Below, one piece after another: positions 57,187-60,100 of a stretch of DNA of 61,128 bases. Position numbers and translations under genes: made by a program. The first letter of the stretch is position 1. Every line of letters starts with the position of its first letter. Origin of the DNA: Pseudomonadota bacterium (lineage in GTDB: Bacteria; Pseudomonadota; Gammaproteobacteria; Steroidobacterales; Steroidobacteraceae); the NCBI GenBank assembly GCA_021779535.1, contig JAJYAM010000009.1, forward strand, positions 1 to 61,128, read 5' to 3'. Below the pieces are notes generated by a model. It was given only the letters and a program-made list of their open reading frames with translations. It was not told where the DNA came from and did not search any database.

Positions 57187-60100
57187 GTGTTGAAGTTTCT
57201 GACGCAGATTTTCGGCAGCCGTAACCAGCGGCTCATCAAAGAACTCGGTCGCACGGTCGTCGCGGTGAATGCACTGGAGGCCGAAGTGCGGGAGCTGCGC
57301 GACGAGCAGTTTCCCGAGAAGACCCGCGAACTGAAGGCGCGCTACGCGAGCGGCGCGAAGCTCGACGAACTCGTGCCGGAGGCGTTCGCGCTGGTGCGCG
57401 AGGCGTCGCGCCGCAAGCTCGGGCTGCGGCATTTCGACGTGCAGCTGATCGGCGGCCTGATCCTGAACGCCGGCAAGATCGCGGAAATGCGCACCGGCGA
57501 GGGCAAGACGCTGATGGCGACGCTGCCGGCGGTCCTGAACGCGCTCACCGGCGAAGGCGTGCACGTCGTCACGGTCAACGAATATCTGGCGCAGCGCGAC
57601 TCGGACTGGATGGCGCCGGTGTACCGGTTCCTCGGTCTCGAGGTCGGCGTGATCAAGAACGCGCAGAGCCAGGAGGAGAAGCGCGCCGCCTACGCCTGCG
57701 ACATCACCTACGGCACCAACAACGAATTCGGCTTCGACTACCTGCGCGACAACCTCGCGTTCCGGCTCGACGAGCGGGTGCAGCGCAAGCTGAACTTCGC
57801 GATCGTCGACGAGGTCGACTCGATCCTGATCGACGAGGCGCGCACGCCGCTGATCATCTCCGGGCCCGCGGAGGAGAGCACCGAGCTCTACCTGAAGATC
57901 AACGCGCTGGTGCCGAAGCTGTGCGCGTCGCCGCTCGAGGAGGCGGTCGAGCGCGGCCTGCTCGTCGAGAGCGTCGATGCGAAGCGCTTGCGGGGCGACG
58001 TGCGCCCGGGCGACGTGATCCTCGCGGTGAACGGCGGGAACGTCGCGAGCCTCGATGAGCTCGGCGCGGCGCTGCGTGGCGGGAAAGCCGGGCAGAAGTT
58101 CGCGGTCGAGGTCTGGCGCGAGCGCCGCGTGCGCGAGGCCAAGGTGGAATTCGCCGGCGACGGCGCGAGCGGGACCGGGATCGTCGCGCGACCGCCGAGC
58201 GCGGAGGAGCGCTACGCGCTCGCGATCGACGGCGACTTCTGGGTCGACGAGAAGCAGAAACAGGCGACCCTGACCGAGATGGGCCACCAGCGCATCGAGG
58301 AGCTGTTCGCCGCGAGCGGGCTGCTGCGCGAGGGCGAGAGCCTGTACGACGCGACCAACATCCGCTTGATGCACCACTTGAACGCCGCGCTGCGCGCGCA
58401 CGCGATCTACAAGCGCGACGTGGACTACATCGTGCGCGGCGGCGAGGTCATCATCGTCGACGAGTTCACCGGCCGCACGATGCCGGGGCGGCGCTGGTCC
58501 GACGGCCTGCACCAGGCGGTCGAGGCGAAGGAAGACGTGCAGGTGCGCGAGGAGAACCAGACGGTCGCCTCGATCACGTTCCAGAACTACTTCCGCCTGT
58601 ACTCGAAGCTCTCCGGGATGACCGGCACCGCGGACACCGAGGCCTACGAATTCCAGGAGATCTACGGCCTCGAGGTCACGGTGATCCCGACCCACAAGCC
58701 GATGATCCGCAAGGACCGGTCCGATCTCGTGTTCCTCAGCGAGCACGACAAGTTCAACGCGATCTTCGAGGACATCCAGGACTGCGTGAAGCGCGGCCAG
58801 CCGGTGCTCGTCGGCACGACCTCGATCGAGGCCTCGGAACGGCTGTCGAAGCTGCTGGTCACGCAGAAGATCCCGCATCAGGTGCTGAACGCCAAGCAGC
58901 ACGAGCGCGAGGCGCACATCGTCGCCGAGGCGGGCCGGCCCGGCTCGATCACGATCGCGACGAACATGGCGGGCCGCGGCACCGACATCGTGCTCGGCGG
59001 CAGCATGCAAATGGAGCTCGACGCGATCAAGGACGCGGCCGAGTCGGAGCGGCAGCGGATCCACGATGAATGGCGGCAGCGCCACGAACAGGTGCTCGGC
59101 GCGGGCGGCCTGCACATCGTCGGTACGGAGCGGCACGAGTCGCGGCGCATCGACAACCAGCTGCGCGGCCGATCGGGGCGCCAGGGCGACCCGGGCTCGA
59201 GCCGCTTCTATCTGTCGCTCGAAGACAACCTGATGCGGATCTTCGGCGATCCGACGCGGATGAAGGCGCTGATGACGCGGGTCGGCATGAAGCCCGGCGA
59301 GGCGATCGAGAGCGGGATGCTCACGCGCCAGATCGAGAAGGCGCAACGGCGGGTCGAGCAGCACAACTTCGACGCCCGCAAGCAGCTGCTGGAGTACGAC
59401 GACGTCGCGAACGACCAGCGCCGCGTGATCTACCAGCGGCGCACCGAGCTCATGGCCGCGGAGAACGTCGCCGAGGCGATCGTCGGCTTGCGCGAGGAGG
59501 TCGTCGACAAGCTGGTCGACGAATACGTGCCGCCGGCCGCGCCCGAGGATCAGTGGGACGTCGCCGGGTTGACCGCGGCGATCGAGCGCGACTTCGGGCC
59601 GCGCTTGCCGATCGGCGAATGGCTCGCGGCGGAGGCGTCCGGCGACGGCGCGTCGCTGAAGAAGAAGATCGTGGACGCGCTCTCCAGCGCCTACCAGGAG
59701 AAGGTCGACAACGTCGGCGTCGAGGTGATGCGCTACATCGAGAAGGAGATGATGCTGCGCACGCTCGATCAGCACTGGCGTGAGCACCTCGCGGCGATGG
59801 ACTACATGCGCCAGGGCATCTATCTGCGCGGCTACGCGCAGAAGGATCCGAAACAGGAGTACAAGCGCGAGGCGTTCGACCTGTTCTCCGGGATGCTCGA
59901 CCGCATCAAGAGCGATACGGTCACCGCCGTCTCGAAGATCCAGGTGCGCAGCCAGGAAGAGATCGAACGCGAGGAAACGGAACGGCAGCGGCGGCTCGCG
60001 CGCGCGTTGCAGCTGCAGCATGCCGAGGCGGTCTCGCCGATCCAGGGCGGCATCGGCGTCGATCCGGGCGCCGGCGCGGAGTTCGGTGGTGGCGACCCGG

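Follow-up and report, generated by a model that had tools for sequence, protein, structure and literature searches.

Few bacterial machines are as conserved or as thoroughly studied as SecA, and the locus described here raises the question of what a block of about 100 additional residues is doing inside it. The gene lies in a stretch of 61,128 nucleotides, hereafter the window, which comprises positions 1 to 61,128 of contig JAJYAM010000009.1 (assembly GCA_021779535.1) from a bacterium of the family Steroidobacteraceae (Pseudomonadota; Gammaproteobacteria; Steroidobacterales). A first-pass annotation, made from the sequence alone, had proposed that these residues form an in-frame PDZ-like domain at the junction of the first nucleotide-binding domain (NBD1) and the preprotein cross-linking domain (PPXD), and had named profile searches, structure prediction and a survey of homologues as ways to check it. 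On the evidence of profile matches and a predicted fold, the insertion is a complete PDZ domain in a loop of the PPXD clamp arm.

Identity and position of the inserted domain

The features of the gene that bear on this question are as follows.

57187..60231, plus strand: secA, one open frame of 1014 codons with a GTG start
57868..57924, plus strand: first PPXD helix, residues 228-246 (modelled helix 228-239), directly before the insertion, from the AlphaFold2 model and the E. coli SecA alignment
57937..58230, plus strand: inserted domain, residues 251-348, delimited by alignments; net, 94 residues more than insert-free SecAs of the same genus have here
57955..58149, plus strand: PDZ core, residues 257-321, with beta3, the GDVILAVNG strand, alphaB and the EVWRERR hairpin, from Pfam PDZ_2 and the domain model
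58168..58224, plus strand: TGIV segment resembling a carboxylate-binding loop, groove strand 332-335 and helix SAEERYAL 339-345, from predicted secondary structure and the match to the PDZ1-PDZ2 stretch of Do proteases
58231..58263, plus strand: downstream PPXD flank, in the variant found together with the insert in g1 and g9, from alignment

Comparison of the whole protein with Pfam returned PDZ_2 at residues 257-321 (31.5 bits, cut-off 27) and PDZ_6 at residues 270-311 (28.6 bits, cut-off 27), and PDZ_2 matched all 21 insert-bearing SecAs of the family at E <= 0.01. An AlphaFold model of the insert reached a predicted local distance difference test score (pLDDT) of 82-95 across most of the domain; the full-length model placed strands at residues 258-263, 268-270, 277-281, 304-311, 314-322 and 332-335 and a helix at 289-297, and the domain model contained the same elements. 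The prediction includes a five- to six-stranded barrel, alphaB and the groove between beta2 and alphaB, and a structural search with it returned PDZ chains (the titles of 2hga and 9cg1 do not say PDZ; the remaining rows we take, by name, to be PDZ proteins). A trypsin-like protease domain found no Pfam match in the window SecA at E <= 1, so the protein is a SecA and not a protease. Profile scores, predicted fold, structural search and relatives therefore all agree with the PDZ assignment of the first-pass annotation, which had the core right in placing it at residues 257-322; its boundaries were too narrow, as the predicted fold reaches to about residue 346.

The extent and site of the insertion were established by alignment. 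Between two fixed motifs, the second of which is VDEFTGR, the window SecA spans 208 residues as opposed to 114 in insert-free SecAs of the same genus (L015, L016 and L018), and the proposed 57922-58225 agrees to within 15 bases with the limits found here. At the place of the insert, four aligned SecAs that we judge by their entry names to be those of E. coli have only about three residues. The insertion lies about 25-30 residues into PPXD, between its first helix and its first strand, according to both alignment and model. In the alignment with the E. coli SecA chain 2vda, the insert interrupts the sequence between chain positions 245 and 249, which presumably corresponds to about residues 253/257 of the E. 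coli protein if a numbering offset of 8 is taken from the DEAD-box D209/E210. Because the break is at this point, and because Pfam SecA_PP_bind was matched after the insert from profile position 16 onward, the insertion is placed inside PPXD; the NBD1/PPXD border favoured earlier was near but not the actual site. PPXD comprises residues 221-377 of E. coli SecA and is described as a mobile arm that swings to clamp the preprotein (PMC6620043). Five insert-free SecAs of genus g12 (L117, L118 and L120-L122) carry 7-14 extra residues at the identical PPXD loop, indicating that the site tolerates changes in length.

In HtrA-type PDZ domains the groove-strand element stands at the start of the domain. 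In the model of the SecA insert, by comparison, the loop, the groove strand and the short helix follow the EVWRERR hairpin, so that the groove strand is C-terminal, and sequence alignments place the equivalent element of Do-like proteases before beta3 of PDZ2. As modelled, the SecA insert is thus circularly shifted with respect to HtrA PDZ domains. Structural alignments gave a corresponding picture: of the construct's 152 residues, HtrA-type chains aligned only as far as 103-107, RseP/S2P chains as far as 111-118 and GRASP chains as far as 122-124, with one looser row to 152. The groove-strand-last arrangement is already known from RseP/S2P and GRASP, and the fold is not new. Both ends of the insert would lie at the opened beta2-beta3 turn, an arrangement that may suit hanging a whole domain from one host loop. 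Carboxylate-binding loops of PDZ domains follow the rule x-hydrophobic-G-hydrophobic and precede the groove strand; the window loop reads GTGIV, and in an alignment read by eye the loop glycine was kept in 18 of the 21 inserts.

Source, distribution and history of the insert

A first profile, built from 12 inserts, found its best non-SecA matches in protease frames of Steroidobacteraceae, the highest reaching 72.4 bits (positions 19-129), and inserts and proteases aligned collinearly, starting halfway through PDZ1 and ending within PDZ2. The protease frames that were checked contained Trypsin_2 together with PDZ domains (7/7, Pfam) and passed the score threshold of TIGR02037, the Do family (6/6, NCBIfam). 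With the profile of all inserts, Do proteases of the family scored 37.2-72.5 bits in 31/31 cases, the match reaching position 102-109 in most, and the best PDB sequence match of the 21-row profile was a DegP-like protease at residues 297-411 (57.6 bits). When the two halves of the insert were compared separately with the 37 of 43 protease frames that had two matched stretches, the first half favoured PDZ2 in 24 and PDZ1 in 13, and the second half favoured the PDZ1-to-PDZ2 stretch in all 37. A PDZ2/PDZ1 hybrid, produced for example by unequal crossing-over in the tandem array, would possibly explain this division, which a shorter PDZ2 loop could mimic. In a tree that included five protease units, the inserts alone formed one side of a 100/100 branch opposite these units (g9, 99/98; g1, 85/68), which argues for a single capture as far as the rows in the tree show. 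The insert was thus probably captured once, to judge by these sequence relationships, and its source was probably a Steroidobacteraceae protease of Do/DegP type, in its PDZ1-PDZ2 stretch; we are fairly confident of its identity as a PDZ domain in SecA and of this origin taken together. With one protease per genome, the best-scoring being chosen, inserts of the window's genus (g1) matched a g23 protease best (65.8 bits).

Two further protease observations are recorded here. The Do-like proteases of the window's genus, L167 (G000:C107, about 35696-35992) and L168, gave 28.6 and 29.7 bits, respectively, with the g1 inserts. Residues 374-473 of L051, a Do-like protease of genome G003, showed a near-threshold match to GRASP55_65 across the PDZ1-PDZ2 border (27.1 bits, cut-off 27.7), its frame being shifted in the way seen in the SecA insert.

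The insert was found in 21 of 217 Steroidobacteraceae genomes (15 of the 114 of good quality), distributed over 4 of 25 genera: seven genomes of g1, nine of g23, three of g13 and two of g9. A scan of the order recovered a full-length match in a SecA-sized frame in 15 of 296 genomes, all 15 of them Steroidobacteraceae. Among the matches listed in the class scans (369 genomes), only the window's own SecA had the insert, one protease being listed as well, and in the phylum scan (299 genomes) the window's own was the only match at E <= 1e-15; these class and phylum scans used a clade-specific profile and scored only the best first-look candidates, so that other SecAs may have independent PDZ insertions. 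A pattern scan of a genome collection that by its description covers 84,980 species returned 23 loci, 20 of them with the insert; all 23 are titled as metagenome-assembled genomes, and the insert-bearing group is known here from environmental genomes only. The recurrence of the insert in 21 family genomes and in 20 of 23 loci shows that it is not an assembly artefact of a single genome. The survey of homologues suggested at the outset found the insert in relatives, whereas scans of genomes from outside the family with the clade-specific profile showed no such SecA. The secA genes of L111 and L113 are close to each other and group with g15 of this family; the names on these two records, Janthinobacterium lividum and Candidatus Planktophila lacus, look wrong.

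On a SecA tree computed without the insert columns (68 rows, 20 with the insert, 16 duplicate loci and one short row excluded; quick search with support only from the Shimodaira-Hasegawa-like approximate likelihood ratio test), the presence of the insert required nine changes, and well-supported branches made seven of these unavoidable. Insert-bearing genes of g1 and g9 have distinctive short stretches on either side of the insert, approximately xxxxEE ahead of it and GD[FY]W[VA]DEK behind it, whereas most insert-free g1/g9 relatives shown have RQxxExGPGD[YF][AS]VDEK or nearly so; insert-free genes shown from g23, g20 and g15 retain GD[FY]WV. Between L012, which has the insert, and L133, which lacks it, seven SecA segments were 90-100% identical as compared with 69% in 13 junction residues. 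This pattern of flanks and junctions is what would be expected if secA genes had exchanged a small cassette, and if g23 had lost the insert cleanly. One old gain followed by many losses, instead of spread by recombination, may also account for it. Over 190 pairs (L093 omitted), the ratio of distances in the insert to those in the rest of SecA averaged 2.9-4.6 between genera and 3.9-5.8 within genera, a gap that saturation can explain. No decayed insert was seen: each of the 21 matches covered at least 162 of 163 profile positions and had no internal stop, although a decayed copy could have escaped the E <= 1e-20 cut-off of the family scan.

Possible function and alternative readings

As generally understood, SecA recognises its clients through the N-terminal signal peptide, signals in the mature domain, SecB and the ribosome. 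The related PDZ domains of proteases bind protein tails: PDZ1 of DegP is reported to bind a C-terminal substrate motif (PMC12445088; PMC11642142) and the PDZ domain of AlgW to sense the C-terminal ends of outer-membrane proteins (PMC8545111). It is from this tail-binding role that the idea of the inserted domain as a tail receptor derives, a reading that we advance tentatively and by analogy, and that, although the likeliest of those considered, may well prove wrong. The role suggested by the first-pass annotation, recruitment of substrates or of a partner, would fit it. The PDZ domain would bind a free, hydrophobic C-terminus, either that of a client still unfolded or that of a partner protein; candidate clients would be outer-membrane or other envelope proteins, which DegP would meet later on the other side of the membrane. 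A tail held beside the clamp could improve capture of those preproteins or could serve as a signal for clamp closure. A bolder version, which we consider unlikely as a whole, is that a client-recognition module of DegP, a periplasmic quality-control protease, lets the SecA clamp read the C-terminal tail besides the signal peptide, and that a cassette some 100 codons long, together with its short flanks, passes from genus to genus between secA genes, so that this essential gene exists as two interchangeable alleles.

Several observations weigh against a captured receptor of this kind. The insert is missing from most relatives, including 16 of the 23 listed genomes of the window's own genus. Three of the 21 inserts (L103-L105) lack the carboxylate-loop glycine, and in the window itself the residue preceding that glycine is threonine, where a hydrophobic residue is usual. 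The ratio of non-synonymous to synonymous substitution rates (dN/dS) was 0.27-0.50 in the insert and 0.10-0.18 in the rest of SecA in all six pairs; the insert is under constraint, but looser constraint than the rest of SecA. The domain replaces no known targeting factor: of the genomes tested, SecB was found in 14/15 with the insert and 18/19 without it (32/34 in total), so the notion of the PDZ domain as a SecB replacement is unsupported, SecB being kept in both groups. As to the source, six of the seven lowest scores among the 31 proteases with the g1 inserts belonged to g1 proteases, that of the window's own genome being lowest (28.6 bits), and the donor was therefore probably not from g1. 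As to the structure, Foldseek returned no E-value below 0.001, and TM-scores were modest. The full-length model was too poor (mean pLDDT 59.7, predicted template-modelling score 0.33; insert blocks 72-87, one at 57) to orient the PDZ groove relative to the clamp.

The main rival to the tail receptor is that a PDZ domain in a permissive PPXD loop folds, has no important ligand and is gained and lost almost neutrally, a tolerated decoration that we judge somewhat unlikely. Its patchy presence, with the nine changes on the SecA tree, the faster evolution of the insert than of the rest of SecA, the three inserts without the loop glycine and the length tolerance of the same loop in the five g12 SecAs all speak for it. 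Against these stand a dN/dS below 0.5 in 6/6 pairs, the glycine kept in the other 18 inserts and the lack of any decayed copy among the 21 matches, subject to the cut-off noted above.

A regulatory role in cis is less probable still: the domain would bind a segment of SecA itself, internal or in the tail, set the rest position of PPXD and tune auto-inhibition. It does sit on the mobile clamp arm, and the tail linker of E. coli SecA reportedly binds in the substrate groove, with an autoinhibitory effect (PMC6620043). The C-termini of 19 insert-bearing SecAs, however, are short and mostly polar (QANG, GALAE, QGEG and others) and differ between genera, the remaining two of the 21 rows ending at a contig edge and not at a real terminus. 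Self-binding of the SecA C-terminus by the domain is thus unsupported, as these tails are not PDZ-like.

That the domain came from the PDZ of a site-2 protease of the RseP type is hardly credible. The order of its elements agrees with that of RseP/S2P and GRASP domains, but RseP frames from eight family genomes, located by a search with their own family, scored only 12.2-25.4 bits with the all-insert profile (8/8, positions 15-81 only), compared with the 37.2-72.5 bits of the 31 Do proteases; a frame of 450-470 residues, L085, is a Do protease. A variable SecA loop or a chance resemblance with no true domain, the alternative that the first-pass annotation had set against its own proposal, has next to no probability, since PPXD loops do differ between SecAs (our alignment; PMC5603524) but Pfam scores above cut-off, matches in 21/21 relatives and the predicted PDZ fold contradict it.

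A SecA with a domain of tail-binding type on its clamp arm would make C-terminal steering of export directly testable, and natural pairs such as L012 (with the insert) and L133 (without) could measure what the PDZ domain does. Such a protein is also an example from nature of how a motor can be fitted with a receptor, and the circular shift, as predicted, illustrates a route to inserting a whole domain through one loop.

Comparison with known systems

No description of a SecA with a PDZ domain was found among the listed titles and starts of abstracts in searches of the open-licence PubMed Central literature, although automatic database annotation may list it, and in the main text of a survey of microbial PDZ domains (PMC6411480) the term 'SecA' occurs 0 times.

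Outside the insertion the motor is an otherwise ordinary SecA. Pfam identified SecA_DEAD (427.9 bits), SecA_PP_bind (130.6), P-loop_SecA (301.4), SecA_SW (234.3) and SEC-C (41.7) on the two sides of the insertion, so that NBD1, PPXD, NBD2, scaffold/wing and SEC-C were all found in the order usual for SecA, in keeping with the earlier statement that the SecA motifs are intact on both sides. A search with PF07517 found one full-length SecA in the window genome, a draft of 127 contigs, and a second, weak match of 24.5 bits over 72 positions. With a single full-length SecA_DEAD match in the draft, the protein is not assigned to SecA2, a second, accessory SecA beside the housekeeping one. Eight relatives (L099-L105 and L107) have two tandem SEC-C-like motifs at the SecA C-terminus, where the window SecA has one. 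The neighbours of the gene, given for context, are the following.

56156..57079, plus strand: M23 peptidase, upstream neighbour of secA
60171..60917, plus strand: NUDIX hydrolase, downstream neighbour of secA

The gene order at this end of the window is ftsA-ftsZ-lpxC-(dciA-like, minus strand)-M23 peptidase-secA-NUDIX. The window protein thus shares with ordinary SecA the motor domains and SEC-C motif in their order and the gene order ftsZ-lpxC-M23-secA-NUDIX, and differs from it by a whole PDZ domain inside PPXD.

Large in-frame insertions in SecA have a precedent in thermophiles, whose signature inserts of 50 residues in NBD1 and 76 residues in NBD2 likewise occupy surface loops of the protein (PMC7023208). 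Those inserts differ in site and size from the PPXD insert of about 98 residues, and PDZ has 0 occurrences in the main text of that source. Closer in architecture are the PDZ-C domain of RseP/S2P and the PDZ domains of GRASP55/65, which gave the top structural rows and have the same element order with the groove strand last, but which reside in other host proteins and are only weakly similar in sequence (12-25 bits for RseP). The PDZ1-PDZ2 stretch of Do/DegP-DegQ proteases shares collinear sequence with the insert, including the EVWRDR and LGxxxRxLSxxER elements; the insert differs from it in lacking a protease domain, in its cytosolic host and in being a single domain with a shifted frame where the proteases have a tandem pair.
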